From: Sphingosinicella sp.
GTDB lineage: Bacteria; Pseudomonadota; Alphaproteobacteria; Sphingomonadales; Sphingomonadaceae
DNA: 64,000 bases
Direction of reading: 5' to 3'
Assembly (NCBI GenBank): GCA_013816585.1
Contig: JACDEE010000005.1
Location: 62,001-126,000 of the forward strand
Position numbers and translations under genes: made by a program. The notes below the pieces were generated by a model. That model made no database searches and was not told the DNA's origin. It was given only the letters and a program-made list of their open reading frames with translations. Positions 23,203 through 38,668 of this stretch are shown here, piece by piece (the stretch's first letter is position 1; every line of letters begins with the position of its first letter).

Positions 23203-24387
23203 TTATTTCCGGCGCAGCCGCTCGGTATCCTGTCCAAGGGCGGGAGCCGCGAACGGCGGAGCGGAGCGCGAGCGGCCGAACCTGATCGGCTCGGCGACAC
23301 CGCGGTAGCTGCCCAGCGTGGGGTGAGCGATATTGGCGGTTATCCCTTCCGCCAATATTTGGGGGTGGTCGAACATGTCCTCGACCGGACGAACGATCGA
23401 ACAGGGGACCTCGTCCCCGAACAGATGCTCCCATTCGACCGCCGAACGGGACGCGAGGCGGTCGCGCAATTGGGGGACGATTTCCGGCGCATGGTCGGCG
23501 CGTTTGCGGACGGTGTCGTAGCGCGGGTCCGCAGCCAGCGCTTCGAGGCCGGTAAGACGGCACAAGGCCCGCCAGAAATGGGGCGTGTTGGCCGATAGAT
23601 AAAGATGACCTTCGGCGGTCGGATGGAGGCCGGTTATGCCGCCCGATCGCATGTCGCGGGGGATGTCGTGCAGTTCGCATTCGGCCTTTATCATTCGCGC
23701 CGATTGCATGGTGAGAGCGCTGCGCAGAAGCGAGACGCCGACAAATTGCCCCTTTCCGCTCCGTTCCCGTTCGAAAAGCGCGGAAGCGACTCCGGCCGCG
23801 ACCATTGCCGCGGCGTAATAATCGACCGGCGAACCGTAAGTGAGTTCGGGAGGCCCACCCGGCTTGCCCTGGAGCACGCACATTCCGGTCATCGCCTGAA
23901 GCACCTGATCATAGCCCGCCTTGGTGCGCATCGGGCCGTCATCGCCATAGCCGGTGACCGTGCAGTAGATGAGCCGCGGGTTGAGCGCTTCCATCCGCGG
24001 ATGATCGATCTCGAGACGTTCGGGCACACCTGGCCGGAAATTATGGACCAGGACGTCGGCTTCCGCAGCAAGCTCGTAGAGCGTAGCGAGATCCTCCGGC
24101 TGCTTGAGGTCGAGCATCATCCCCTGCTTGCTTCGGTTGACGCCGAGGAACGCGCGATTCTCGCCCTCGAGAGTCGAAGGATAATGGCGTAGATTGTCGC
24201 CCGACGGCGCCTCGACCTTGATCACGTCGGCGCCCTGATCCGCGAGCAAAGCGCAGCCATAGGGCCCGGCAATATAGGCGCTGAGATCAACCACTTTGAT
24301 CCCGGAAAGCGGACCGGCCCCCTCCGCCCGCAACGGACTGCGGAACCGGGAAGATTCGGGAATGTCATTGAAATGTGGGCGGCGCAT
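23203..24387 (-). CDS. Type III (CaiB/BaiF, family III) acyl-CoA transferase
   Basis: Transfers CoA between carboxylic acids. The 394-residue protein starts at the ATG at 24387, three bases after the esterase stop. Family features are GPLSGIKVVDLSAYIAGP near the N-terminus, LGVNRSKQG near 81, VHNFRPGVPERL near 114 and the catalytic aspartate Asp160 in GYDQVLQAMTG. It is the last gene of the six-gene operon that begins with the TonB receptor. Together with the CitE-like lyase on the divergent arm it suggests that a carboxylic acid is activated by CoA transfer and then cleaved. The substrate is not known. Confidence 0.9.
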   Translation of the reverse strand: MRRPHFNDIPESSRFRSPLRAEGAGPLSGIKVVDLSAYIAGPYGCALLADQGADVIKVEAPSGDNLRHYPSTLEGENRAFLGVNRSKQGMMLDLKQPEDLATLYELAAEADVLVHNFRPGVPERLEIDHPRMEALNPRLIYCTVTGYGDDGPMRTKAGYDQVLQAMTGMCVLQGKPGGPPELTYGSPVDYYAAAMVAAGVASALFERERSGKGQFVGVSLLRSALTMQSARMIKAECELHDIPRDMRSGGITGLHPTAEGHLYLSANTPHFWRALCRLTGLEALAADPRYDTVRKRADHAPEIVPQLRDRLASRSAVEWEHLFGDEVPCSIVRPVEDMFDHPQILAEGITANIAHPTLGSYRGVAEPIRFGRSRSAPPFAAPALGQDTERLRRK

Positions 24388-24390
24388 CAA

Positions 24391-25932
24391 TCAGGTTCCG
24401 GGCTGGGTATAGGGTGCAGGTGCGAAGAGGAGGCGCTGCCAGCGCCGCGGGTCACGCTCAAGCCGGGCCTTTATGTCGAACATCATCGTAGGGCGATCCT
24501 TGAGGGTGTAGCGGGGCCAATGGGGTATGGCGCGGCAATTGGGATCCCCTGTGCGGGCAAAAGCGAGGAAGCAATCCTGCATCCGCACCGAAGCCTCGCG
24601 CGCGTCCGGCGCGTCGCCCGTTGGTGAGCCTTTGGCGCTGAGCGTACCGAAAACGAGCGGGACATCGATCGCATGTTCGGCGCCGCGACGTGGGTCCGCA
24701 CGGGAGGAGAAGTTCACCTGATAAGCGAAAACCGGGCGTCCCGCTTTTGCCCGGGCCTCCAAGATTTCGAGCTGCCCGCGCCAGCTGCGGCCGTCCGTGG
24801 TCGCCGCGAAGAAAATGTCACTGGGCGATGCCTCGGGCATGTGGCGCCGATAGGTCGCGACGACCAATTCGGGGGGAACATCCACTGGAAGCTCGCCGGC
24901 GATCTGCGCACCGACATTGTCCCAATTCATCTGGCGGATCATTGGGGAATCAGGGGAGAAATAGTTGCGCGTTTCATCTCGCGTGCCGCCCATCATCATG
25001 TTCACATCGTGAGAAATGCTGGGGGCATCCGGCCAGAAAGGATGGCGGCTGATCCATCGGCCGTCCAGCACCGGGCCCATATGGACCGGGCCTCCATATG
25101 CCGGATCTTCCGCTGCCAATCCTTCCAGAAGCCGTTCGGCGGGGAGAACCGGAAGCTCGGTCGGGGCGACCTTCAATTTTCGGGCAAAAGCTTCCGTTCG
25201 GGCAGCGGCGCGAATGGGGCCGGAGGCGGTCACTTGCTGGCCGCTCATGGTGGCGACGCGGCTGAAGAGGCCCTTTGCCGCCGGGGCCGCCATGAGGTTT
25301 GTGATCTTGCCTCCGCCACCCGATTGACCGAAAAGCATCACTCGATCGGGATCTCCGCCAAAACGCGCGATATTCGCCTTCACCCAGCGCAGGGCCAGGA
25401 GGATATCCAGCTGTCCCGCATTTCCGCTGTCTGGAAATCGCGGATCGAGGCCCGCGAGGTATAGATAGCCAAAGGCGTTGAGACGATGATTGAGGGTGAC
25501 GACCACCACGTCGCCGCGCGACGCGAGAATTTGCCCATCGGTCTGGGGATCGGCGCCGCTGCCAAAGGCGAAAGCTCCGCCATGGATATAGACCATGACC
25601 GGTTTCCGAGCGGTCGCTTCAATGCCCGGCGTCCAGATGTTGAGGAACAGGCAATCCTCGGACTGGGGCCGCTTTCGCAAGGGTTGCGGGCAATCAGGTC
25701 CGAACTCCCGCGCGGATACAAGATTGGCGCCCCGTGCCACGGGGCGAGGCGCGCGGAAGCGGTCGGCGCGACCGTAGCGAATACCCCGGAAGACGGCCAC
25801 CCCGTCTTGCCATTCCCCCTCATACTGTCCGGCCTCGCAAGTGACGATCGGGCCGTTCCGGGCAAGGGCCCAGCCGGGGCCGGCCATCAGGGCACTTCCC
25901 CCCGCCAGGACAAGTCGCCGCGTAATGATCAT
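24391..25932 (-). CDS. Type-B carboxylesterase, exported
   Basis: Alpha/beta-hydrolase of the carboxylesterase family. The 513 residues start with a twin-arginine-like signal (TRRLVLAGGSALMAGPGWA), so a periplasmic location is likely. Features include SEDCLFLNIW (91-100), the oxyanion HGGAF (118-122) and the nucleophile elbow GQSGG with Ser204. The usual GESAG is altered at two positions. The histidine segment is HAIDVPLVFG. Its start overlaps the GH127-like stop (ATGA). In this operon it may remove acyl or aromatic esters from a plant-type carbohydrate, which is inference. Confidence 0.88.
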   Translation of the reverse strand: MIITRRLVLAGGSALMAGPGWALARNGPIVTCEAGQYEGEWQDGVAVFRGIRYGRADRFRAPRPVARGANLVSAREFGPDCPQPLRKRPQSEDCLFLNIWTPGIEATARKPVMVYIHGGAFAFGSGADPQTDGQILASRGDVVVVTLNHRLNAFGYLYLAGLDPRFPDSGNAGQLDILLALRWVKANIARFGGDPDRVMLFGQSGGGGKITNLMAAPAAKGLFSRVATMSGQQVTASGPIRAAARTEAFARKLKVAPTELPVLPAERLLEGLAAEDPAYGGPVHMGPVLDGRWISRHPFWPDAPSISHDVNMMMGGTRDETRNYFSPDSPMIRQMNWDNVGAQIAGELPVDVPPELVVATYRRHMPEASPSDIFFAATTDGRSWRGQLEILEARAKAGRPVFAYQVNFSSRADPRRGAEHAIDVPLVFGTLSAKGSPTGDAPDAREASVRMQDCFLAFARTGDPNCRAIPHWPRYTLKDRPTMMFDIKARLERDPRRWQRLLFAPAPYTQPGT

Positions 25933-27776
25933 AGCGTCGAACCGCTCGATGGAGCCAGACCCATCCAGCTAAGTCGCCAGCTGCCATGCTGCCGCCCGCC
26001 CGCCCGGTAATAAGGTTCGAAGATCAGCACCGCGCCGCGATCCGATCGTAGCTCCAGATCGTAACCCGGCAGGCCATTGCTGGCCGGCACTGCGCGAATG
26101 TCGGCAGGGCCAGGCTCGGCGCGGAGGATGTCGCTCGTTCGGTAGCCGTCGATCAGCCCCGTGGCATAAGTGAATGGCCCCAGGGTGAAGGCGACATAAT
26201 CGTAGCGCATTACCTCCTGCGCCACCGGGGAACCGTCCGGAGCCAGCGATTCCTGGACATTCCGGCTGACGGCGCGGTGGATCGACGGCGTCATGGGGAG
26301 CGAAAGAATGATGCGGTCACCGGGTGCCCAGCGGCGCGTGATCGACGCAAACTCGCCGGCTACGGCTGGGCGGCTCGCCTCGCCGGTTACGGAAACCGAG
26401 CCGCCGTCAGCCCAATCGGGGACGCGGACCTGAACGGTAAACTCTGCCTCCCTCTCTGGCTCGATTACCAGGCTGACATCGCCGCCAAAGGGATAATCGC
26501 CCTCCTGCCGGACGCTAACCGCTCCAGCCCCAGGTAAAATGACTACCGCCTTAGAAGGGCCGAGCAGGTTGACGCTGAGCGCGCCCGCGCGGGTCACGCC
26601 GTAGGCAATCGCCGGAAGTTCCTCCAGGGCCATCGCGCCGCTCGACTTGCAGCACCGCCAATAAGTGGTGTGGGTCCGCCGGCCGTTCGGGAAGGAATAA
26701 TAGCACCAATCTTCACCGTCAGGCGCCTGCGCGCCGATAAGGTCGTTATAGGCCGTGCGCTCGATTTCCTGGGCGAATTCGGCCTCACCCAGAATTTCGA
26801 GCAGCTGACGGTTGAGTTGTATCCAGGCCATCGTCGAGCAGGTTTCGACATAGCCATGAGGATCGAAAACCGCCGCGGGGTTGAATATTTCGCGTGAGCG
26901 ATGGGCGACACCGCCCCAGGGACCGCCGCCAAGCGTCAAATGGTGAGCGCGGATACGGGCCCAGATATTGCGCACTGCCGTCAGATAGCGTTCGTCGCTC
27001 GTCGCCCGGTAGAGCTTGGCGAGCCCGACCAGATTCCAAAGCAATTGATAAGCCTTTCCCGTCGCAATTTCCGACGGATCGGCGTCGGCGAGCGCCGCCG
27101 ACAGGAAGGCGCTGCGCGGGTCGCGCTCCGCCTGCTCGACGAGCAATAAGGCGAGGTCGAGATAATGCTGCTCCCCCGTCGCCTCGTACAATTCCACAGC
27201 CGGATCGATCAGGATCGTCGCCGACAGGCCGAAATGGTTGCCAAGATCGGTAATAGAGATGTCGCCGCTACTCAGCGTCTTAAAGGCGAGGTCCCCAATC
27301 CTGCGCGCGGCGGCCAGATAGCGCGCGGCCTCCGTCGCCCGATGGAGTTCGACAAAGCCAAGAATGAGATAGCTGTGAGTCCAGATGTCCCAGGTGCGGA
27401 GCGCCGGGGCCCCATCCCAGTTGAATGGCTTGGGCGGCTGCTTGACCATGAAGCGCCGCTCGGGTGGGTAATTGCCCAGATAGCCGCCCGTCTCCTGCCG
27501 TGCGATCAGCCAGTCGGCGACACGTTGTGCCCGGGCGATCAGTTCGGCATCGCCGGCTCGCACCGCCGCGCGCGTTGCCGCCACCAGCCATTTACCGGAA
27601 TGTTCGCCATACCAGTCCCCGCCTTCATTGGCCGCGACCGCCTCCGGCCCGAACAGGGCGATGGCCGGGCTGGATTCATCCACGACGAAGCGCGAAAGGC
27701 GCCCGCGATGATTGGCGTCCAGCGCCTCACCCAGAACTCCCCCCAGCCGCGCGGGGCCGGAGGAGTTGAAACTCAT
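25929..27776 (-). CDS. GH127-like (DUF1680) glycoside hydrolase
   Basis: Related to beta-L-arabinofuranosidases with an alpha/alpha-barrel. With the ATG at 27776 it has 615 residues and no evident signal peptide. The barrel segment ETCS (Glu312, Cys314) and the segment YWRCCKSSG (Cys375, Cys376) correspond to the region of the zinc site and nucleophilic cysteine. In characterised GH127 enzymes I recall a C-x-C-C motif; here the first cysteine is replaced by tryptophan, so the metal site may differ. A GTG at 27800 would overlap the upstream gene by 17 bases and is an alternative start. Substrate unknown. Confidence 0.75.
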   Translation of the reverse strand: MSFNSSGPARLGGVLGEALDANHRGRLSRFVVDESSPAIALFGPEAVAANEGGDWYGEHSGKWLVAATRAAVRAGDAELIARAQRVADWLIARQETGGYLGNYPPERRFMVKQPPKPFNWDGAPALRTWDIWTHSYLILGFVELHRATEAARYLAAARRIGDLAFKTLSSGDISITDLGNHFGLSATILIDPAVELYEATGEQHYLDLALLLVEQAERDPRSAFLSAALADADPSEIATGKAYQLLWNLVGLAKLYRATSDERYLTAVRNIWARIRAHHLTLGGGPWGGVAHRSREIFNPAAVFDPHGYVETCSTMAWIQLNRQLLEILGEAEFAQEIERTAYNDLIGAQAPDGEDWCYYSFPNGRRTHTTYWRCCKSSGAMALEELPAIAYGVTRAGALSVNLLGPSKAVVILPGAGAVSVRQEGDYPFGGDVSLVIEPEREAEFTVQVRVPDWADGGSVSVTGEASRPAVAGEFASITRRWAPGDRIILSLPMTPSIHRAVSRNVQESLAPDGSPVAQEVMRYDYVAFTLGPFTYATGLIDGYRTSDILRAEPGPADIRAVPASNGLPGYDLELRSDRGAVLIFEPYYRAGGRQHGSWRLSWMGLAPSSGSTL

Positions 27777-27783
27777 GGCCTGT

Positions 27784-29931
27784 TCAAAGGTCCGCGGCAC
27801 AGCGGAAGCCGATGCCGGCGGAGCGGTCTTTCGACGGCGCCATCAGCAGATATTTGCCATGTTCATTGAGCGCATAGGCCTGGGGGAAGTACCAATGGGA
27901 GGTTTGCGGCTGATAATTACTCCCGCCGCGCAGCACCGCCGCCCTGACATGCTCGTCCAGATATTCGTCGGTCCACTGCCAGACATTGCCCACCATATCC
28001 ATCACACCGAACGGGCTGGCGCCCAGCGGATGCGCGCCGACGCGCGCAGGATCAGGCATATTTCGATCCAGCGAAGGTTCGGGGACCGCCTCGGGATTCC
28101 ATTCGCCGCCCCATGGGTAGAGTCGGCCGTCATTGCCCTGCGCGGCATATTGCCATTCCCACTCGCGCGGCAGCCGCTTGCCCGCCCAGGCGGCAAAAGC
28201 GCGTGCGTCCTCGATCGAGACCCATATGACCGGTTTCTTCTCCGAACCCGCGGGCGGTGCCCCGTCGCTCCAATGGCGGAGGAAATTATGGGCATCGGCG
28301 GGCGCGTATCCACTCGCATCGAGGAAGGCCTTATACTGGCCGTTGGTCACCGGGCAGCGATCGATGCCAAAAGGATCGATCCTGATCCGGTGGCGATGAT
28401 GACGGCGCGGCGCGGTTTCCCATGGATATTGGACGTCGACTCCCTCGGCGGCATAGCCTTCGATCACCACGCCGTGAACGTCGAAATCGAAGTCTGTTGC
28501 GGGGATAGCGATCATCCCCTCGGGCACGCTGCCATGCGCCTTATTCGCCTGGATCGGTACCAGGCGTTGCGCCGCCGAATGCCAGGTCGAAGAGAAGCTA
28601 TCGAGCGGGTTTTTGGCGAGGCCCCGCATTTGATCGAGGAAGGTTTTCAGATCGTCGTCCTGCGCTCCGTCGGAGCATTGGAGCACGGCTCCAAAACCTT
28701 TGGCGTCGATGGACATCGAAATGACAGCGCGATCCCCTTCGATTCGGGGATCGAGCCCGGTGCCGTTCCAGGGATCGAAATATTCGGCGCCTTCGACATG
28801 GGGAATGCTGATCTGCTCGCCTGCAACGTCGAATTCGTTGCGGTTGATCAGCGTCCACAAAATCTGTCTCTCGCCGGGAAAGCGGCTGGCAAATATGCCG
28901 AACTGGAGCGTGCGTTCATAGGGGCGCCAGCCCGGGCTGGTGACCAACTTCCAGAAATGGCGCTGGATCGCCGCCACGCGGCGCAGAGTCTGGCCATCCC
29001 GTTCGGTCAGCTGGTTCCAGAAGCCGAAGACATTTTCCCAGGCCACATAGCCGATGCCGTTGAAGAAGGCGTGCTGCAGATCGTTGGTGCGGCTGCGGCT
29101 CCAGCGATTCTCGATATTGACGATATGGCGAGGCTCCAGCCATTTCAGCTTGAGCACGGCCGGCACGGGTTCGTCGGGAATGCGCTTCGACCAGCTCTGC
29201 ACGTTCCAGGACAATATGTGGTCGCCGGCCTGCGAGGTGGTTTCGGGTTGGAGAACGACCGGCCGGCCCTGTGCCAGGCAAGCCTTGTGAAAGGCCCGCG
29301 GGACGCCGCTATAGGTATCGCCATTGACCCCGTCGGCCCCGGTCGCGGCAACGAGATCGGCCATCAATTCCCAATCGGGCTTGCTTCCCGGGCGGGTGCC
29401 ATTGTCCCAGGGCATGGTCGGAAGGAACACCTTAACCCCGCGGCGGTGGAAGTCGTCCACTACCCCCTTGAGGCCCTCCACGCCGCCGGGTAGATCCCTG
29501 GCGAGGTCGAACTGGCTGCGATCGTCAATGCCGATATTGGGATAGATGTACCAGATGAGCACGCTGTCCACCTGGCCGAACCGGCCCTCGAGATCGTCCA
29601 GATAGCGGTCGACCGTATAGCGCCCGGATTCAGCGTCATAGAAATAACGGTCCTCGACCATCGTCAGCACATGAACGAAATTGCGCTGGGCCCATTCGAG
29701 CCCGGGATCGCGGTAGAGACTATCGTCGAACCCGATCCGGATCAGATGTTCGGTCCGCCATTCGGTGAAACCGCGCACCCATTCGTCGCAATCGCCATCG
29801 ACGTCGACCCGCCACCGGCCCATTTCCTGGAAAGGCCATCCCATCAGCCGGCCCGGCGGCGCCAAATAGGGACCGGTCAGCGCATGCGACACCTTGTAAG
29901 TGCTGGTCGTTCGAATGGGGGACGAGCTCAT
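27784..29931 (-). CDS. Fusion: glycosidase-like TIM-barrel domain plus FGE-like (SUMF1) domain
   Basis: The 715-residue protein starts at the ATG at 29931, which overlaps the kinase stop. The open frame upstream to 30144 is a shadow of the kinase gene. Residues 1-410 look like a retaining-glycosidase-type barrel, with acidic segments GADGVNGD (Asp200, Asp205) and QPETT (Glu230). I cannot assign a CAZy family. Residues 470-715 are formylglycine-generating-enzyme-like: PEGMIAIP, DRCPVTNGQYKAFL, GKRLPREWEWQYAA, MVGNVWQWTDEY, LRGGSNY and a final GIGFRCA. The catalytic cysteine pair of true FGE (in YRYRCAAR) is replaced by YFPQAYALN, and no sulfatase is nearby. The FGE-like part is therefore probably not a sulfatase activator. 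Confidence 0.7.
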   Translation of the reverse strand: MSSSPIRTTSTYKVSHALTGPYLAPPGRLMGWPFQEMGRWRVDVDGDCDEWVRGFTEWRTEHLIRIGFDDSLYRDPGLEWAQRNFVHVLTMVEDRYFYDAESGRYTVDRYLDDLEGRFGQVDSVLIWYIYPNIGIDDRSQFDLARDLPGGVEGLKGVVDDFHRRGVKVFLPTMPWDNGTRPGSKPDWELMADLVAATGADGVNGDTYSGVPRAFHKACLAQGRPVVLQPETTSQAGDHILSWNVQSWSKRIPDEPVPAVLKLKWLEPRHIVNIENRWSRSRTNDLQHAFFNGIGYVAWENVFGFWNQLTERDGQTLRRVAAIQRHFWKLVTSPGWRPYERTLQFGIFASRFPGERQILWTLINRNEFDVAGEQISIPHVEGAEYFDPWNGTGLDPRIEGDRAVISMSIDAKGFGAVLQCSDGAQDDDLKTFLDQMRGLAKNPLDSFSSTWHSAAQRLVPIQANKAHGSVPEGMIAIPATDFDFDVHGVVIEGYAAEGVDVQYPWETAPRRHHRHRIRIDPFGIDRCPVTNGQYKAFLDASGYAPADAHNFLRHWSDGAPPAGSEKKPVIWVSIEDARAFAAWAGKRLPREWEWQYAAQGNDGRLYPWGGEWNPEAVPEPSLDRNMPDPARVGAHPLGASPFGVMDMVGNVWQWTDEYLDEHVRAAVLRGGSNYQPQTSHWYFPQAYALNEHGKYLLMAPSKDRSAGIGFRCAADL

Positions 29932-30911
29932 ATTCTGTCCTGGGCGGCTTCTCTGCCGATATCCGCTACGCCGCAATAAGCCGCCAGACCAGCCAGAGCC
30001 GCCGTTTCGGCATCGGCCCTGTCCGGCACCGCTTCGACCTCCGCGCGGGTTGGGATACTGGACTGCGCGCCCATCCGGGTAGCGGCAAGGCCCGCGGCGG
30101 CGCAGGCGGTGCTGAGGCCCGTAGCAAGGCTCTCGCCCGCACAAAGAGAGGCGGCAAGCACACCGCAGAAAGTATCGCCTGCGGCGGTCGTATCGACCGG
30201 AGTGACCGCGACGGCGGGCTGAAGGTAGAATTGTCCATCTGAGCGCGCACAGGCGCCGCGAGCGCCGAGGGTCGCAACAACGCAGGGCACATCCAGGCGA
30301 GCCAGCTGCTCGGCGATCGTCCCTTCCGCCCCGCCAATGGCGGAAAGCTCGTCTTCATTCACGACCAGCACGTCGATCGCGGCGAGCAATTCGGCGGGAA
30401 GCAATTGCGCTGGAGAAGCATTCAGGATCACCCTCACTCCATGCGCATGCGCGGCGCGCGCATAGGCAATGACGGTCGGAAGTGGGGTCTCAAGCTGCAA
30501 CAGCAGGCCGTCTATCCCGGTCAAATCGGGCAGATCCCCCGGCCGAAGCGACATGTTGGCGCCCGGCGCGACGGTGATGGCATTTTCGGCATTGTCCGAA
30601 ACGCAGATCAAAGCGGCGCCGGTGGGTGCGCCCGACCGCACGCGATGAAGCGTGATGCCGGCCCCGGTGAGCGACGTTTCAAGCAAAGGTGCGAATACGT
30701 CATTGCCGAGCGCGACGAGCATAGCGGTGTCGGCGCCGCCCGCACGTGCGGCGGTCACCGCCTGGTTGGCGCCCTTGCCGCCAGCCACCATGGTGAGATC
30801 CCGGCCCAGCACCGTCTCGCCGGGTGCCGGAATGTGCGGCGCCCGGATGACGAAGTCGACATTGGCGGAACCGGCAACCAGTACCGAGGCGTGAGGCTTC
30901 GATTCGGTCAT
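29928..30911 (-). CDS. rbsK: PfkB-family sugar kinase, ribokinase-like
   Basis: Phosphorylates a sugar or related compound with ATP in the cytoplasm. The 327 residues carry the two PfkB signatures: GGKGANQAV (44-52) and DTTAAGDTFCGVL near 240-252 with catalytic Asp246. The N-terminal VAGSANVDFV and the overall pattern are closest to ribokinase. It follows the TonB receptor by 12 bases and overlaps the fusion gene. Ribose is not the only possibility; in this locus the product of glycoside cleavage, perhaps a pentose, is a likely substrate, which is inference. Confidence 0.85.
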   Translation of the reverse strand: MTESKPHASVLVAGSANVDFVIRAPHIPAPGETVLGRDLTMVAGGKGANQAVTAARAGGADTAMLVALGNDVFAPLLETSLTGAGITLHRVRSGAPTGAALICVSDNAENAITVAPGANMSLRPGDLPDLTGIDGLLLQLETPLPTVIAYARAAHAHGVRVILNASPAQLLPAELLAAIDVLVVNEDELSAIGGAEGTIAEQLARLDVPCVVATLGARGACARSDGQFYLQPAVAVTPVDTTAAGDTFCGVLAASLCAGESLATGLSTACAAAGLAATRMGAQSSIPTRAEVEAVPDRADAETAALAGLAAYCGVADIGREAAQDRI

Positions 30912-30923
30912 CGGATCGCGAGG

Positions 30924-33137
30924 TCAGAAATTGCTGTTAAGTGTCAGCGTTACCGTGCGTCCACGTCCCGCGAAATAGTTCTGAAAGAAGTCGATCTGCG
31001 AGAAGGAGAGGAAATAAAATTTATTGAAAAGATTTTCTGCGCCCAGCGAGACCGTGCCGAGCCCGTCGACCCTGTAGCGTGCCGTCGCGTCGAACAGGGT
31101 TCGCCCCTTGGTCTGTTCAGTGACCACAGTTCCGGTTCGCACCGTCCGATCCATCGTCTGGTCCATGCCGAGCGAGAATGACAAATCAGGTGTCGGCAGC
31201 ACCGTCGCGGTCAGGTTAAGCTTGTCCGGCGCGATGTTGGTGATGCCGAGCTGGACGTCGAGCGGTGTGATTACATTGTTGGCCCGGGTGGTCATCCCCT
31301 TCACGTGGCTATAGAGGCCGTTGAAACGGAGCCACGGGGTTGGTCTGAGCTCCGCAGTTGCATCGACTCCGGTGATCTTGACCGGACGCCGGTTTAACAC
31401 GAAATCGAGCGTTGCCGGATCGACTGACAGGCTCGCACCAAGTTTCGAAAAGGACCGGTAATAGGAAGCCCCGATGCTGCCCCAACTGCGACGCCAATTT
31501 GCGCCGATTTCCTTGTTCTCGAAGATGACGGCCTGCAAATCGACGATCCCATCGACCGACTGGCCCGGCTTGTTGATGTTCCGTAGCGGAATGCCCACGT
31601 TCGGCAGCGTGAACCCTTCGCTATAGGACGCGAAAGCGGAAAGGCCGGCACCCAATCGCGCGATGATCCCAGCGTTATACAAGTCGTTCTTGTATTTGAG
31701 CGTGCCACCGGTGACGAAGGCGCGGTTACGCCTGAAGAGGGTGCTGTAATCGTCGACCTTCACTCGGCCATCCTCGTGCCGGATGCCGCCGGTGACCGTC
31801 ACCGGACCGATGTCGTAAGACAATTGCGCGTAGGGGCCGAAACTCGTGTACTTGAGGGGTGGTACCAGCACACGATCAGTGATTGCCAGGCGCTGCTGGG
31901 TATTGTCGTACACGGCGTCGATGCCGACGCGCACTTCCAGGCCCTCGAGGAATTCGGGCAGTGTGTAGGACGTACGCAAGCCATGCTTCTTCGAATTGAT
32001 TTCCGATTGGTCGACCAGGGTACCGATCGGTGCAATCAACGGGTCTTGGCGATCATCGGTGTTTTCGCCACCGAAGCGCATTGCCTGCCGCGCGTAATAA
32101 GCCGTTACCAAGAGACTGCCGTCGAACAGATCGGTGTTGCTGTAATTCAGGGCCGCCTGCTTGAATTCATTGAATTCGGTGCGCAACGTGTCTTGCCCGT
32201 TGCGGTCTAGGAGGGGACCGGGCTCGGACGTATCGGGGAGTCCGGTCGTCTGGTCGGTGCCAGGAGGTGGCCGGCGACCCGCAACGTAGTGATAGTTCCC
32301 CTTGCTCGCGAGCCGGAAGAAGTTGCCGGTCAGCTCGAGCCTCTGGTTGCTGTCGAATTCAATTCCGGTCTTGAGGAAAAAGTTCTTTTGCGTGGTATCG
32401 GCGAGCGAACTGGACGCGCTTAGCCCGATCCGGCGACCCCTGGCGTCGTAGGTCGCACCGCGATCGACAAAAGCGGCGGCAGTGAACAGGTCGAAGTTGC
32501 CGCTTTTGTAGGACAGGTCACCCTTGATGCCATAGATGCCGCTGTCATCGCGAAACTGCGTCCCCAGACGGCCGCCAACGTGGGCATGAAGGCCTTCGCG
32601 CGTTGCGCGCTTGGTAATGTAGTTGATGACGCCGCCGGCGGCGCCGATGCCTTCCGACGCCGACGCGCCGCTGATGACCTCGATCCGTTCGATGATCGAC
32701 ATGTCCGTGAAAGTCGCGTTTCGGCTGCCGTCGCGCAATGGGGTTGATTGCGGAATGCCATCGAACAGGTAGAGCGTAGCGCGGCCGCGCAAGGTCTCGC
32801 CGAGCGTGTTGAGCGTCTGGTTCGATTCGGAATAGCCAGGCACGTTCTTCGCGAGCACCGAGGTCGAATCTTCGTTCAGCTCCAGATTGCGCGACACCTC
32901 CGCGGATGAAATCACCGTGACCGCACCGGGAATCTTGTCCACCGCCTTGGGCGTACGGCTACCGGTGACGATGACTTCTTCCTGGTCGGGGTCATCGAGC
33001 GCCGCCTGCGCTTCTTTGGGGGTAAGCTCGGCTCCGTCCGCCGCGGCAGTGCCCGCCCCGGTATCCTGAGCATAAGCAATATGGCTGGTGCCAACGAGCA
33101 GCATCGAGGCCAGCGTCAAACGCGCAAAAGTTTTCAT
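30924..33137 (-). CDS. TonB-dependent outer-membrane receptor
   Basis: Energised uptake of a large or scarce substrate across the outer membrane. The 737-residue protein has a signal peptide (1-23). A plug domain begins after EEVIVTGSRTPKAVDKIPG (about 53-71) and contains LRGRATLYLFDG and SGASASEGIGAAGGVINYI. A 22-strand barrel follows and ends TLTLNSNF with the terminal phenylalanine. It is the first gene of the operon reaching to the CoA-transferase, and divergent from the CitE-like gene. Position at the head of a carbohydrate operon suggests glycan or glycoside uptake rather than siderophore uptake, though the sequence alone does not settle this. Confidence 0.92.
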   Translation of the reverse strand: MKTFARLTLASMLLVGTSHIAYAQDTGAGTAAADGAELTPKEAQAALDDPDQEEVIVTGSRTPKAVDKIPGAVTVISSAEVSRNLELNEDSTSVLAKNVPGYSESNQTLNTLGETLRGRATLYLFDGIPQSTPLRDGSRNATFTDMSIIERIEVISGASASEGIGAAGGVINYITKRATREGLHAHVGGRLGTQFRDDSGIYGIKGDLSYKSGNFDLFTAAAFVDRGATYDARGRRIGLSASSSLADTTQKNFFLKTGIEFDSNQRLELTGNFFRLASKGNYHYVAGRRPPPGTDQTTGLPDTSEPGPLLDRNGQDTLRTEFNEFKQAALNYSNTDLFDGSLLVTAYYARQAMRFGGENTDDRQDPLIAPIGTLVDQSEINSKKHGLRTSYTLPEFLEGLEVRVGIDAVYDNTQQRLAITDRVLVPPLKYTSFGPYAQLSYDIGPVTVTGGIRHEDGRVKVDDYSTLFRRNRAFVTGGTLKYKNDLYNAGIIARLGAGLSAFASYSEGFTLPNVGIPLRNINKPGQSVDGIVDLQAVIFENKEIGANWRRSWGSIGASYYRSFSKLGASLSVDPATLDFVLNRRPVKITGVDATAELRPTPWLRFNGLYSHVKGMTTRANNVITPLDVQLGITNIAPDKLNLTATVLPTPDLSFSLGMDQTMDRTVRTGTVVTEQTKGRTLFDATARYRVDGLGTVSLGAENLFNKFYFLSFSQIDFFQNYFAGRGRTVTLTLNSNF

Positions 33138-33290: not shown

Positions 33291-33323
33291 CCGGCGATGT
33301 GACCGGAGCGGAGGGGTCGTTTG

Positions 33324-34160
33324 ATGCGCAGCAAGCTGTTCGTGCCCGGCACGCGCCCGGATTTTTTCGAAAAGGCACTGGCCGGCGAAGCCGACGCGAT
33401 CTCATTCGACCTTGAAGATTCGGTCCCGGAGGGCGCCAAGGCCGCTTCTCGCACCCGGCTGGCCGAGTTCCTTGGCAGCGACCTCGTGCGCTCGACCGCG
33501 AAGACGATCATCGTCCGGGTCAACGCGATCGGTACGCCGCATTTCCAAGACGATCTTCGGGCCCTTGCGCAGGCGCACATGCACCTGATCAACCTTCCCA
33601 AGGTGGAGGATGACGAAGCGATGCGGGCGGCGGCGTCGAAAGCCAGCGAAATTGCCGGGGACGCGCGCCTGCTGGTGAACATCGAAACGCCTCGTGCACT
33701 CGCGCGGGCCAGGACCATCGCCGCTGCCGATCCGCGGATAGCGGGGCTGCAGGCCGGCCTGAACGATCTGTTCGAGCCGCTCCGTATGGATCGAGCCGAT
33801 CCGTTCAACGTGCAAACGGCCTTATGGCAAATACGCATGGCCGCCGCGGAGAGCGGGTTGTTCGCGTATGACGGCGCTTGGCCGAATCTGGAAGATGCTG
33901 ACGGGTTTCGGCGCGAGGGCGAACTGGCGCGGAGCATGGGTTTCCTGGGCAAGAGCTGTGTTCACCCGAGCCAGGTGGCGATTGCCAATGACATATTCGA
34001 CCGCGGCGCAGAGATCGCGCAAGCGCACCGTATTCTTGATGCGGCGGGGGCCGCGGCAACCGAGGGCAATGGGGCCTTCCTGCTCGACGGAAAGATGATC
34101 GACGGGCCAGCGATCGCGCAGGCCAGGTCCGTTGTCGCCGGCGTGGAGGAGGGACGATGA
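33324..34160 (+). CDS. CitE-like (HpcH/HpaI family) CoA-ester lyase
   Basis: Member of the citrate-lyase beta / malyl-CoA lyase superfamily, which cleaves or forms beta-hydroxyacyl-CoA esters with magnesium. The 278 residues start at the ATG at 33324 after GCGGAGGGG. Features are SKLFVPGTRPDFFEKAL, the metal/CoA segment DAISFDLEDSVPEGAK, INLPKVE, VNIETPRAL (acidic ligand) and GKSCVHPSQ near the C-terminus. It overlaps the symporter start (ATGA). Together with the type III CoA-transferase on the opposite arm it could form an acid-activation and cleavage pair. Confidence 0.88.
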   Translation: MRSKLFVPGTRPDFFEKALAGEADAISFDLEDSVPEGAKAASRTRLAEFLGSDLVRSTAKTIIVRVNAIGTPHFQDDLRALAQAHMHLINLPKVEDDEAMRAAASKASEIAGDARLLVNIETPRALARARTIAAADPRIAGLQAGLNDLFEPLRMDRADPFNVQTALWQIRMAAAESGLFAYDGAWPNLEDADGFRREGELARSMGFLGKSCVHPSQVAIANDIFDRGAEIAQAHRILDAAGAAATEGNGAFLLDGKMIDGPAIAQARSVVAGVEEGR

Positions 34161-36577
34161 TCGGCCGCGCCGTGCGGATGCTGCTCGCCGCCCTGTTTTT
34201 GCTGGTGATGGGTACGATGCCCGCCCAGGCCGCCGACGGCGTGGCCCAGGTCAAGACGATCCGCCTCCCCGCGCTTTTGAGTGACGGGTCGCAGCCGATA
34301 TTGGGTGCGGTCGGTGGCCGGCCGATCGTGCTGCAGCGGACCGGCCTCCATTTACTCGCGAGCGACCGACGTAGCTGGACGGCCCTCGATCCCAGAGAGC
34401 TAGGCCTGGCGGAGCCCATCGCAAGCACCGCCAGCGATGGTGCCCAAACCTTGCTGCTGATCGAGGGTCAAGACGGGGCGGGCCGCGCGATATTGCTGAC
34501 GGCAGAAGGTGGAAACCCGAAGTCCCGAAGGCTCGCTGCATTGCCGGTAGCACTCAAGGACACAAAGGCTACCTTTCAGGGGGATAACATTGTGGTGGCG
34601 GGCACCACGCCTGGCAGCCGTATCAGAATATTCCGCCTGTCTATCTTGGGTTCCGGCGGCTGGACCGAACAGGCGAGCGTTCCCGGCGCCGTAAAACTCG
34701 CCGGGCTGGTCGGTCAGGGAAATGCCCTTTTCGCTACCCTGGAGGATGGAAGCCTTTGGCGCTGGAACCTGAAATCCGGGTGGCAGGTTCGTACGCGCGC
34801 TCCTGGAAAGCTCGTCTCCGGTTCCGAACGGGCGGTCAGCCAGGCTGGACTGCTCTATCTGGTCAAAGACGCAAGCGGCGGCGAGAACCTTTTCAGCTAC
34901 AGCACGATCACCGATGCCTGGGCCAAGCTTGGCCACCACCAGGCGGACAGTGCCGTCGCGAACGTCCGATACGGCAATGGCATCCTGTCCGCCTGGCAAG
35001 TCGCCGGACGCCTTCAATTTGCAGCGGCGGAGCTGGAATATCAGCGGCGCCCTCTCGGCTTTCTCGATTGGGTCATCATCATCTTCTATCTGGTCGCGAT
35101 GCTGTCGGTGGGATTCTATTTCTACCGCCGTTCCAAGCACGGCTCTTCCAGCGACTTCTTCCTCGGCAGCCGCACCATCCCCTTCTGGGCAGCGGGCATC
35201 AGCATGTTCGCCGGCAATACCAGTTCGATCAGCTATCTCGCCATTCCGGCCAAGGCGTTCGAGACCGACTGGCAATATATGATGTCGAAAGTGGTGACCG
35301 TCTTTGGCCTGATGGCCGTCGCCTTCTGGATCATACCGGTTTTCCGCCGCCTCAACCTGGTGTCGGTATTCAATTACCTGGAAATGCGTTTCCACCCGAT
35401 TATCCGCATGCTTTCCAGCGCGCTCGCCATCCTGATGCATGTCGGTGGCCGGATGGGCATCGTCCTGTTCCTCCCAGCGCTCGCGATCGGCACGATCACT
35501 GGCACTAACGTCGTGGTCTGTATCCTGGTCATCGGCATATGCACGATCATCTACACCGCCCTGGGCGGGATGCGCGCCGTGGTCTGGACCGATTTCTTCC
35601 AGGTGATCATCCTGATGAGCGGCGCGCTCTTCGCGATCGGGTTCATCATCTATTCGGTCGGCGCCGCGCCGATTTACGAAACGGCGATGCAGTTCGACAA
35701 GACCAAGCTTGTCAACGTCAGCTTCGATTTCACCCAGCCCACCATCTGGGGTTTCATCATCCTCATATTATTCGACACGGTCCTGACCTTTCCCAAGGAT
35801 CAGGTGCTGATGCAGCGGGCCCTGTCGACGCCTTCAGAAAAGCAGGCGAGCCGGTCGGTCTGGGTTTTCGCTGCCATCCTGCTGCCGGGCGGGATCATCT
35901 TCTATTTCATGGGCACGATGCTGTTCGCTTATTATCGCGCCAATCCCGGTCGGCTGGACCCCTTGTTGCCGATCGACGCCGTGTTTCCCGCCTTCATCGG
36001 AACCGAGCTGCCGCACGGAGTCACTGGCATGATCATCGCCGGGCTGTTCGCCGCGGCGATGGGAACGCTGTCAGGCACGATCAACAGCGTCGCCACTTTG
36101 CTCTCGGTCGATTTCTACGAGAAATTCCGGCCAGGGACGACGCAGAAGAAGAGCGTCCGCTTCGCCGAATGGATGAGCGTCGTCGTGGGACTCGTGGGAA
36201 TCGGCATCGCGATAATTCTGTCGCGGATGGACATTCATTCGCTGCTGGACCTAACGATCGAGCTGTTCGGTCTGCTGGGCGGAAGCTGCGCCGGCGCCTA
36301 CACTTTGGGCATGTTCACTCGAAGATCCAACTGGCAGGGGGTAGCGATCGGTATCGTCAGCGCCTCGATCATCACCTTGGTCTGCTGGATATTCGGGCTG
36401 GTCCATCCTTATTTCTACCTGGCGATTGCGATCGTCATGTCGATCGCGATTGGCTATGTTGCCAGCTTCTTCTTCGCGCCTCCGCCGGAAGAATCGCTCA
36501 CGGGCCTCACCCTGTGGGACGGCGGCGGACGAAAGGGCATGACCGGGAGACGCGCGCAATCGACATCAACTTCCTGA
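34157..36577 (+). CDS. Sodium:solute symporter with extracytoplasmic N-terminal beta-propeller-like domain
   Basis: SSS-family sodium-coupled transporter in the inner membrane. The 806 residues begin with a signal peptide (1-26). About 270 extracytoplasmic residues follow (27-300) with repeating short beta-strand patterns such as GNALFATLEDGSLWRWNL, resembling propeller blades. The SSS core starts at GFLDWVIIIFYLVAM (301) and contains FFLGSRTIPFWAAGISMFAG and the sodium-site helices. The core is a normal length. The N-terminal domain is an addition that may bind or sense the solute, or mutarotate it; some sugar-acid SSS genes lie next to propeller mutarotases. Substrate unknown. Confidence 0.8.
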   Translation: MIGRAVRMLLAALFLLVMGTMPAQAADGVAQVKTIRLPALLSDGSQPILGAVGGRPIVLQRTGLHLLASDRRSWTALDPRELGLAEPIASTASDGAQTLLLIEGQDGAGRAILLTAEGGNPKSRRLAALPVALKDTKATFQGDNIVVAGTTPGSRIRIFRLSILGSGGWTEQASVPGAVKLAGLVGQGNALFATLEDGSLWRWNLKSGWQVRTRAPGKLVSGSERAVSQAGLLYLVKDASGGENLFSYSTITDAWAKLGHHQADSAVANVRYGNGILSAWQVAGRLQFAAAELEYQRRPLGFLDWVIIIFYLVAMLSVGFYFYRRSKHGSSSDFFLGSRTIPFWAAGISMFAGNTSSISYLAIPAKAFETDWQYMMSKVVTVFGLMAVAFWIIPVFRRLNLVSVFNYLEMRFHPIIRMLSSALAILMHVGGRMGIVLFLPALAIGTITGTNVVVCILVIGICTIIYTALGGMRAVVWTDFFQVIILMSGALFAIGFIIYSVGAAPIYETAMQFDKTKLVNVSFDFTQPTIWGFIILILFDTVLTFPKDQVLMQRALSTPSEKQASRSVWVFAAILLPGGIIFYFMGTMLFAYYRANPGRLDPLLPIDAVFPAFIGTELPHGVTGMIIAGLFAAAMGTLSGTINSVATLLSVDFYEKFRPGTTQKKSVRFAEWMSVVVGLVGIGIAIILSRMDIHSLLDLTIELFGLLGGSCAGAYTLGMFTRRSNWQGVAIGIVSASIITLVCWIFGLVHPYFYLAIAIVMSIAIGYVASFFFAPPPEESLTGLTLWDGGGRKGMTGRRAQSTSTS

Positions 36578-37446
36578 GGACGTTTCTCGCCGTGGTGGAT
36601 CACGGATCGATGGCTGCCGCGGCCCGCTCGCTCGGCCTCAGCCCCTCCGGCATCGCGCAGCAACTGCATGCGCTGGAACGCGAACTCGGAACGCCTTTGA
36701 TTGTTCGCGTCGGCCGTACCATGCGGATGACCGAGCAAGGTGGGCGTATCATCGATCATGCGCGTCAGGTGGTGCGGGACGCGGCCGACCTTCGAAGCAT
36801 CGCCAATGACGGAGAATTGCGCGGCGAGCTTCATCTGGGGGCCTGCACGACGCCGCTGATTGGCATGCTTCCTGAAATCCTGTCGCGGGTAAGCGAAAAA
36901 TTTCCCCAGATCACTGTCCACATCCAGTCCGGCAATTCGTCGCAACTCTACCGCGAGGTCGAAATGGGCAATCTCGACGCGGCGTTCGTGCTCGAAGCTC
37001 CCTATCCGTTGCCCAAGACCTGCGACTGGATGGTGCTGCGCGAAGAGCCGCTGATCGTGCTGGCGCCGGAGGCGCTCGCCCATGTCGATGCGCACAGCCT
37101 GCTTCGCGAGCAGCCATTCATCCGTTACGACCGCAATCAATGGGGCGGGCGGAGCGCCGAACAATATCTGCGCGGGGCCGGCATCGTCCCGCGCGAACGG
37201 TTCGAACTCAACGCTCTTAACGCCATCGCCATGATGGTCGACCGCGGGCTAGGAATATCGCTGGTTCCCGATTGGGCGCCCCCTTGGCCGGCGGGCCTCA
37301 ACGTCGCGCGGCTGGCCCTGCCCAAACCGACCATGGCACGCCGGATCGGGATTGTCTGGTCGCTGGCCACCGTTCGAATGCGGTTGGTGCGCGTACTCCG
37401 GGAGGAAAGCGAGAAAGCCTCCGCGAGTGCCACCCACCGGGCTTGA
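36514..37446 (+). CDS. LysR-family transcriptional regulator
   Basis: The N-terminal winged helix (INFLRTFLAVVDHGSMAAAA, SPSGIAQQLHALERELG) and an effector-binding domain (from about residue 105) are intact. There is no in-frame ATG before the helix-turn-helix. The nearest standard start is the GTG at 36514, giving 310 residues and a 64-base overlap with the symporter, but without a clear binding site. A rare ATC start near 36559, preceded by GGGAG, would give the family-typical N-terminus. It is the last gene of the right arm of the catabolic locus and is the best candidate for its regulator. Confidence 0.82.
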   Translation: MGRRRTKGHDRETRAIDINFLRTFLAVVDHGSMAAAARSLGLSPSGIAQQLHALERELGTPLIVRVGRTMRMTEQGGRIIDHARQVVRDAADLRSIANDGELRGELHLGACTTPLIGMLPEILSRVSEKFPQITVHIQSGNSSQLYREVEMGNLDAAFVLEAPYPLPKTCDWMVLREEPLIVLAPEALAHVDAHSLLREQPFIRYDRNQWGGRSAEQYLRGAGIVPRERFELNALNAIAMMVDRGLGISLVPDWAPPWPAGLNVARLALPKPTMARRIGIVWSLATVRMRLVRVLREESEKASASATHRA

Positions 37447-37471: not shown

Positions 37472-38668
37472 CTACCGCAACTTGCTCGCCAACCATTCCT
37501 CGATCGCTCGATAGGCCGACCGGCCCCGCGGCGGCTCCGATCCGTTGCCGGCCGCGAAATAGGCGATCCCAATTTTGCGTTCGCGGTCGATCCACAGTCC
37601 GGAACGAACACCATAAGCATCGCCCGCGTGACCCGTGACGGATCGGCCGTCGCCGAACAGATCATCGTGGCAGCCGTCCATACGAACAGGCAGAGTCTGG
37701 CTCGCTAGCCCATAGGCGCAGTAGAAACCCTTATCAGTCTCCCCGTTGGAGCCGTCATATTTCCAGACCGGAGTGAGCTGGCTTTCGATACTGGCCGGAT
37801 TCAGGAAGACGGCACCTTCATGCCGGCCCTCGTTGAGCAATAAGCGCCCAATCACCGAAAGGTCGCGCACCGAGACGCGAAGCCCGCCTTGCGGGGAAAA
37901 GATGGCGCCATTGGTCCCCAACCTATAAGCTTCCAGGTCGCATTTTCCGCCTTCCACCTGAGCCACCGGGCAATCGGGCAGACGCCCGTGCAGATCGTCG
38001 CGGATTGCGGACCCGTCCTCGCCATAGAGGACGACCGCGCGCCCAAGCGCGACATCGCTGCAAGTGGTCCAGTTGAAACAGGCGTCGAGCCCGAGCGGCT
38101 TCAACACGAGGCGCTCCATCAGCCGGTCGAACCGCTCCCCGGTCGCCTTTTCCATCATGGAGGCGATCACCGGAAAATTGAGGTTCGAATATCGGAAATA
38201 GGCGCCCGGCGCATGCTGCGGGTCGAAACCGGCTGGATCGGCAAGAGTCCCGCGCAGATCAGTTCCCAGCGGGACCACATAATCCACTTCATCGCGGAGG
38301 CTCGACGTGTGCGAAAGAAGCATCCGCAAACTTATCTCACGGTCGGGGAAAGTCGGGTTTCGCAGGGGCCAGCCCAGCCGGTCCGATACGTCCGCGTCCA
38401 GATCGAGCCGGCCCTGTTCGACCAGCCGCATCACGCCCAGCGCCACCACCAGCTTGGAGATTGAGGCGACCCGCACAGGATCGTCGATCGTGAGCACGCG
38501 GCCGGTGCCCCGGTCGGCCACGCCTGAAGCCCCTTTTCGCCTCAGCCCATTTTCGTCGAACGAGGCCCAGGCATAAGCCACCCCGGCCGGCGTCGCCGGA
38601 ATAGGGGATGGCCGCCCAACGCAGCCGGCAAGCAAGACGATGATCAGGATTCCGGCCAAGAGCCGCAT
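37472..38668 (-). CDS. Beta-lactamase-fold serine hydrolase, lipoprotein
   Basis: Class C beta-lactamase / DD-peptidase superfamily member. The 398 residues start with a lipoprotein signal and lipobox LLAGC (Cys16). The active-site motifs are SISK (Ser69, Lys72), YSN in RYSNLNFPV, and HAG in GHAGDAYG near the C-terminus. It contains at least four cysteines in the mature chain (CFNWTTC, CPVAQ, KC), which may form disulfides. The role could be an esterase, a peptidase or a beta-lactamase; sequence alone does not decide. It converges with the LysR gene and stands alone. Confidence 0.85.
   Translation of the reverse strand: MRLLAGILIIVLLAGCVGRPSPIPATPAGVAYAWASFDENGLRRKGASGVADRGTGRVLTIDDPVRVASISKLVVALGVMRLVEQGRLDLDADVSDRLGWPLRNPTFPDREISLRMLLSHTSSLRDEVDYVVPLGTDLRGTLADPAGFDPQHAPGAYFRYSNLNFPVIASMMEKATGERFDRLMERLVLKPLGLDACFNWTTCSDVALGRAVVLYGEDGSAIRDDLHGRLPDCPVAQVEGGKCDLEAYRLGTNGAIFSPQGGLRVSVRDLSVIGRLLLNEGRHEGAVFLNPASIESQLTPVWKYDGSNGETDKGFYCAYGLASQTLPVRMDGCHDDLFGDGRSVTGHAGDAYGVRSGLWIDRERKIGIAYFAAGNGSEPPRGRSAYRAIEEWLASKLR

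Follow-up and report, generated by a model that had tools for sequence, protein, structure and literature searches.

FGE uses two cysteines to bind copper and to oxidise a sulfatase cysteine to formylglycine, and proteins of the same fold that have no such cysteine pair, among them SUMF2, EgtB and PvdO, are also known. In glycosidases of family GH13, the nucleophile is an Asp after strand 4 of the barrel, with an Arg two residues before it; the acid/base is a Glu at strand 5, and a further Asp stands at strand 7. An FGE-sulfatase-domain protein has been described as the target of a diversity-generating retroelement (PMC3610870), and FGE-sulfatase has been treated as a lectin-fold domain with a plain binding role (PMC8195603); no glycosidase barrel appears in the parts of these two papers that concern the domain.

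Here we describe a protein from Sphingosinicella sp. in which an FGE-like domain is fused to a glycosidase-type barrel. It is encoded in a stretch of 64,000 nucleotides (contig JACDEE010000005.1, positions 62,001 to 126,000; hereafter the window). A search of the open-licence literature returned no description of such a fusion, which is weak evidence of absence. The fold of each half is already known, as are FGE-fold proteins without the cysteine pair; what is new, as far as searches of Pfam, NCBIfam, PDB sequences and the open-licence literature show, is a family that joins an as yet unassigned glycosidase-type barrel to a converted FGE domain. The reading put forward below, to which we give a probability of about 0.5, is that of a retaining glycosidase barrel of an unassigned family with an obligate, non-oxidase FGE-fold partner at its substrate site.

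A two-domain protein and its relatives

The reading frame is real: translation runs from an ATG at 29931 to a stop ending at 27784 and yields 715 aa, and the 786-aa frame of the open reading frame list is the same frame with an upstream TTG start and nothing else. The ATG overlaps the stop of the ribokinase-like gene upstream, and the GH127 frame has its own ATG a few bases past the barrel-FGE stop (Table 1). Up to E 10, the sole Pfam match of the protein is FGE-sulfatase (PF03781) at residues 507-712 (E 4e-36), which leaves the first ~460 residues without any, and no signal peptide is apparent by eye. AlphaFold2 modelled the whole protein, with 79 sequences, at a pLDDT of 91.4 and a pTM of 0.92, and the barrel half alone at a pLDDT of 91.6.

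Table 1. Features of the barrel-FGE gene and its surroundings, with coordinates in the window. Loci are the best 80 of 196; a neighbour was counted if its tblastn match reached E 1e-10 or better and covered at least 40% of the query, in flanks of at most 8 kb.
Feature	Coordinates	Strand	Basis and occurrence
Class III CoA-transferase	23203..24390	-	Pfam CoA_transf_3; 51/80 loci
Carboxylesterase-family gene	24391..25932	-	Pfam COesterase; 6/80 loci
GH127-family gene, from ATG at 27776	25929..27776	-	Pfam GH127 catalytic and middle domains; 48/80 loci
Barrel-FGE protein, 715 aa	27784..29931	-	Translation; homologues (best 80 of 196) full-length or nearly so, 50-74% identity
FGE/SUMF1-fold domain without cysteine pair, residues 471-715	27787..28521	-	Pfam PF03781; Z 21-22 against FGE, SUMF2 and CalU17
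S-x-W-Y ... D-R signature, residues 678-703	27823..27900	-	S678 137/138; W680, Y681 138/138; D702, R703 136/136
(beta/alpha)8 barrel (to about residue 335) and C-terminal beta-sandwich, residues 44-420	28672..29802	-	AlphaFold2 models; Z about 22 against GH13 enzymes; no Pfam match
E230, predicted acid/base, end of barrel strand 5	29242..29244	-	141/141; strand from model; role inferred
D205, predicted nucleophile, after barrel strand 4	29317..29319	-	141/141; strand from model; role inferred
Ribokinase-like PfkB kinase, overlapping the barrel-FGE start	29928..30911	-	Pfam PfkB; 55/80 loci
TonB-dependent receptor	30924..33137	-	Pfam; 51/80 loci
HpcH/HpaI (citrate-lyase-beta-like) lyase	33321..34160	+	Pfam; 20/80 loci
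Sodium:solute symporter	34157..36577	+	Pfam SSF at residues 334-732; 47/80 loci
LysR-type regulator, start approximate	36568..37446	+	Pfam HTH_1, LysR_substrate; 47/80 loci

Relatives were taken from the best 80 of 196 confirmed stretches, a set biased to close relatives. Alignment A1 combined the window protein with 78 of these 80, leaving out L011, which nearly duplicates L009, and the fragment L058; of its 79 rows, A2 used 52 and A3 used 40. A larger set of 141 proteins, comprising 138 distinct sequences, joined the window protein and the best 80 of 196 to 60 proteins from wider searches. Left out of it were L103-L110, which are re-reads of included loci, and L111, which is represented by L171; the barrel limits of L122 were set by hand.

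The same two-domain order, with the FGE-like domain C-terminal to the barrel and in the same frame, was found in 140 of the 141 sampled proteins, and a search for an already characterised barrel family with this order found none. In the one exception, L170 (L170:1-2750), the barrel frame is cut by the DNA end and the preceding frame closes with an FGE-like domain; the locus could hold two tandem copies. Some family members carry long extra N-terminal parts without a Pfam match. Set against ten other FGE-domain proteins, which the window protein had found in 60 related genomes (partial L089 and EgtB-like L002 and L003 excluded), the FGE-like domains of the family are monophyletic with a support of 0.933, and this single clade would be consistent with one fusion event.

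The family spans Pseudomonadota, Acidobacteriota, Armatimonadota, Neomarinimicrobiota and one Spirosoma plasmid, by which Bacteroidota are represented. At E 1e-5, profile A2 matched barrels in 4 of the 398 genomes searched from the window's phylum and in 22 of 297 Acidobacteriota, and profile A4 in 6 of 149 Neomarinimicrobiota and 73 of 251 Armatimonadota; A2 is narrower than A4, so these rates are not strictly comparable between phyla. Each searched genome set is named by the phylum of its centre loci. The Armatimonadota matches are strong (E 7.9e-87 or lower) in 37 of the 73 genomes, and the FGE-like domain was checked in 29 of these (L136-L164) and in L082. Among the relatives searched with the window protein, the window genome is the only one of its genus with a barrel match, and ten other related genomes matched the FGE-like half only.

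Copies of the gene also lie on a Sphingopyxis plasmid (72% identity) and on the Spirosoma plasmid (34%). Both are annotated 'SUMF1/EgtB/PvdO family nonheme iron enzyme', a public label that is probably misleading: it likely points to the wrong chemistry and obscures a candidate carbohydrate-active family that is common in some phyla (strong barrel matches in 37 of 251 Armatimonadota genomes). The Sphingopyxis plasmid pSFD01 (L096, NZ_AP017899.1) is typed mobilizable and carries the receptor, kinase, barrel-FGE, GH127 and CoA-transferase genes, and the presence of the cluster on such a plasmid suggests horizontal spread.

The FGE-like domain

Compared with known structures, the C-terminal half has an FGE fold (CalU17, Z 22.0; SUMF2, Z 21.2; FGE, Z about 21). 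An earlier, sequence-only reading of this gene had listed an FGE/SUMF1 framework in which the cysteine pair is missing, and both parts of that claim stand. PEGMIAIP, GKRLPREWEWQYAA, MVGNVWQW, RGGSNY, YFPQAYALN and GFRCA are all found in the translation. When the window protein is aligned with FGE-domain proteins that bear CxxxxC, the position of the first cysteine is taken by Q674 and that of the second by H679 according to mafft, or by S678 according to hhalign (a one-residue gap). Across residues 672-682, no Cys occurs in any aligned family sequence (138 have residues at 674, 678 and 679), and CxxxxC after the GG(S/A) motif is found in 0 of 140 family members, whereas seven of the ten FGE-domain proteins taken for comparison from related genomes carry it. 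C711, in GFRCA, is kept in 134 of 136 sequences; as the GFRCAAD motif with this cysteine is also present in SUMF1 and SUMF2, C711 is not one of the catalytic pair. FGE activity was rejected on the absence of the catalytic cysteines, in agreement with the earlier statement that the domain is not an FGE. The same genome holds one sulfatase-superfamily match (E 5e-10).

The family has a signature of its own. W680-Y681 and D702-R703 are invariant wherever they are aligned and S678 nearly so (Table 1), and the two pairs are kept even where the barrels share 24% identity. A regular expression of the form S-x-WY...DR...GFR fits 134 of 140 family members. Four of the six misses (L114, L121, L131, L138) are sequences that stop short of the signature stretch or inside it; of the other two, L083 is without the signature Ser and L073 reads SFRC instead of GFRC, with WY and DR present in both. 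In L114, which came from the Acidobacteriota search, the frame stops inside the FGE-like domain though the DNA runs on, possibly through a frame break or an assembly error. Taken as a whole, the FGE-like domain is no less conserved than the barrel: mean column identity is 72% (40 rows) for the former and 62% (52 rows) for the latter.

A degenerate former FGE, drifting without function, might be expected to have lost its catalytic cysteines, as the paralogue SUMF2 has done. Signature residues that are invariant across four phyla and a fusion kept in 140 of 141 proteins make such drift scarcely credible, and the idea of a decaying domain was rejected as contradicted by these counts. The loss of the cysteines together with a fixed signature looks like selection for another role and not like decay, and the strict conservation of the domain would fit a ligand or active-site role.

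One such role would be that of a second enzyme with cysteine-free chemistry, for instance a metal- or oxygen-dependent step like that of PvdO- or EgtB-type proteins. The strictly conserved W-Y and D-R set could serve it, the window protein has weak NCBIfam similarity to EgtB, SenA, PvdO and GldK, and three histidines of the domain are widely kept (H512 in 119 of 129 sequences, H691 in 116 of 136, H661 in 111 of 138). Yet all of these NCBIfam matches fall far below the cut-offs, no histidine of the domain reaches 95% across the family, and the window protein is without the HxxxHxE motif, which is found in the other FGE-domain protein of the same genome (L002). A second enzyme is thus quite improbable in our view, and an EgtB-type iron enzyme was rejected on the missing HxxxHxE. 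Because the domain has no cysteine pair, no HxxxHxE in the window protein and no histidine above 95%, we take it not to be an oxidase.

The other role to be weighed is that of an independent carbohydrate-binding (lectin-like) or structural module, attached to a glycosidase barrel and placed outside its active site. The FGE fold is common to C-type lectins and serves elsewhere as a ligand domain (PMC8195603), the retroelement target mentioned above is of this domain type (PMC3610870), and the structural matches of the FGE-like half include Treponema variable protein 1 (Z 18.8). Retention in 140 of 141 proteins would, however, be unusual for an add-on binding module, and the domain is conserved to at least the same degree as the barrel; a module of this kind is possible but somewhat doubtful. 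That the FGE-like domain is instead a non-oxidase partner helping to form the substrate site has, in our estimate, roughly even odds.

The barrel half and a proposed function

According to AlphaFold2 and structure comparison, the N-terminal half is predicted to fold as a (beta/alpha)8 barrel of the alpha-amylase type, joined to a beta-sandwich. The GH13 enzymes TVAII, neopullulanase and maltogenic amylase each match it at Z 22.1 over about 330 residues, GH129 at Z 20.4 and an alpha-galactosaminidase (GH36-like) at Z 19.6. These matches to the predicted model have only 10-13% identity and moderate Foldseek TM-scores (about 0.55 of query), and as the compared chains were pre-ranked by Foldseek, families absent from the lists are uninformative. 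Sequence searches gave no family. At E 1, the 52 barrels matched nine Pfam families with one to three members each, the best at E 0.01 (DUF4585, Malt_amylase_C), which may be chance or remote similarity; the GH13 catalytic domain was matched by none of the 52, and Malt_amylase_C by two (best E 0.01). Likewise, the family profile found no significant barrel match among PDB sequences, where the best hit outside the FGE half, VirB9 at E 0.029, was taken as chance. The sequence-only impression of a barrel that resembles a glycosidase but fits no nameable family is therefore borne out, with a glycosidase-type fold predicted and no Pfam family assigned.

Six residues, W175, D176, D200, D205, T206 and E230, are invariant in all 141 proteins (138 distinct sequences, the most divergent sharing 24% identity with the window protein), and the model places D205 after strand 4 and E230 at the end of strand 5. 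Position 299, which follows strand 8, holds Glu in 128 of 130 sequences. From the strand positions of D205 and E230 and the arrangement in GH13, the barrel is probably a retaining glycosidase with D205 as its nucleophile and E230 as its acid/base. The same scaffold could instead support a transglycosidase, phosphorylase, isomerase or lyase, given that the GH13-like fold houses several activities and that branching enzymes, GlgE and trehalose synthase are in the structural list of the barrel; nothing found favours these activities over hydrolysis, however, and we consider a non-hydrolase unlikely.

Starting from the domain content, the predicted folds, the conservation, the near-universal fusion and the gene neighbourhood, all of which are established, we infer catalytic roles, retention, a role for the FGE-like domain, a cell location and a pathway as follows. 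The protein would be a glycoside hydrolase or a close relative, with the barrel performing retaining chemistry through D205 and E230. The FGE-fold domain, devoid of the copper cysteines and not an oxidase, would be the obligate partner of the barrel, and the surface bearing W680-Y681 and D702-R703 may either form part of the substrate site or close over the barrel. For the window's lineage, a cytosolic enzyme is probable, and it would act together with the products of the nearby genes for GH127, a sugar kinase, a CoA-transferase and a lyase to degrade a small imported acidic or acylated glycoside. A bolder version of this reading, which we offer only tentatively, is a new glycoside hydrolase family that arose by one early fusion and was kept across phyla, its active site lying between the amylase-type barrel and the converted FGE domain with a W-Y/D-R pocket.

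Gene neighbourhood and comparison with known systems

It had been suggested that the fusion might always lie beside GH127 genes. This did not hold, as GH127 is present in only 48 of the best 80 of 196 loci, and an obligatory GH127 partnership was rejected; of the 32 loci that lack GH127, 17 comprise less than 17 kb of DNA, so that the absences are partly contig ends. Both the CoA-transferase (51 of the 80) and the ribokinase-like kinase (55) are commoner neighbours. The CoA-transferase accompanies GH127 in all 48 loci that have it and occurs without it in L046, L049 and L052. ADP-ribosylglycohydrolase-family genes are found near barrel-FGE in the latter two (L049:11702-12916; L052 near 11753) and in L079 (10087-11808). 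Eight GH127-less loci, all from Acidobacteria, possess both the ribokinase-like kinase and a sugar/ureide-type permease; elsewhere the surroundings are mixed or the contigs short.

As for the neighbours themselves, the PfkB kinase of the window scores below the ribokinase equivalog cut-off (249.9 vs 299.65 bits). The symporter has an N-terminal extension of ~300 residues (window:34157-35100, + strand), apparently with a signal sequence, and its first 314 aa are without a Pfam match. In 32 of the best 80 of 196 loci (e.g. L014:5687-7000), the cluster includes an esterase-like gene of the class-C beta-lactamase family; the beta-lactamase-family gene that the window carries at 37472-38668 is a different one.

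The CoA-transferase resembles formyl-CoA and succinate-hydroxymethylglutarate CoA-transferases, the lyase resembles citrate-lyase-beta and acyl-CoA lyases, and the best solved relative of the symporter is 5nv9, listed as a putative sodium:solute symporter and presumably a sialic acid transporter. Together, these resemblances hint at an acidic or acylated glycoside, and the cluster of the window's lineage may serve the uptake and breakdown of a small compound of this kind. Barrel-FGE would then mark a conserved uptake-and-breakdown cluster for a glycoside in soil and plant-associated bacteria.

Among known systems, EgtB, SenA, OvoA, PvdO, CalU17 and ToxD have an FGE-like fold in common with the C-terminal half (Z 19-22 where they appear among the structural matches). 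The window protein differs from EgtB in having no HxxxHxE iron ligands and in NCBIfam scores far below the cut-offs. In the predicted model, the barrel and its C-terminal beta-sandwich are alike to those of GH13, GH129 and the GH36-like alpha-galactosaminidase, and GH13 also has an Asp after strand 4 and a Glu at strand 5, to which D205 and E230 would correspond. In contrast to GH13, the family shows no recognisable sequence similarity to it, has N, F, V, I or Y in place of the Arg two residues before D205, and has no invariant acid after strand 7 across the family alignment.

A further likeness is to DUF6259 (PF19773). The barrel profile hits five long proteins of Armatimonadota with E-values from 2.5e-33 to 2.6e-39, the matches lying mainly in the second half of the profile; the three of them that were scanned are DUF6259. 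Unlike the barrel-FGE family, none of the five has an FGE-like domain, and DUF6259 is matched by no scanned barrel-FGE protein, among them the window protein at E 10 and the 52 barrels at E 1. DUF6259 is likely a distant cousin of the barrel family, with a kinship that is indirect and runs through the family profile, and as DUF6259-like proteins do without the FGE-like domain, the barrel type is not tied to that domain outside the barrel-FGE family. Armatimonadota genomes such as G976, G927 and G882 have six or seven barrel-profile matches each, mostly partial and in long frames, which apparently form an expanded, undescribed barrel family (three similar proteins are DUF6259).

With FGE/SUMF1 and SUMF2, finally, the family has both the PF03781 fold and the framework motifs in common (Pfam E 4e-36, Z about 21). 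It differs from FGE/SUMF1 in that the catalytic cysteine pair is absent (0 of 138), in its fusion to a glycosidase-type barrel and in its own S-x-W-Y ... D-R signature, and it thereby provides a clear case of an FGE fold that has shed the oxidase residues and is still under strict selection.
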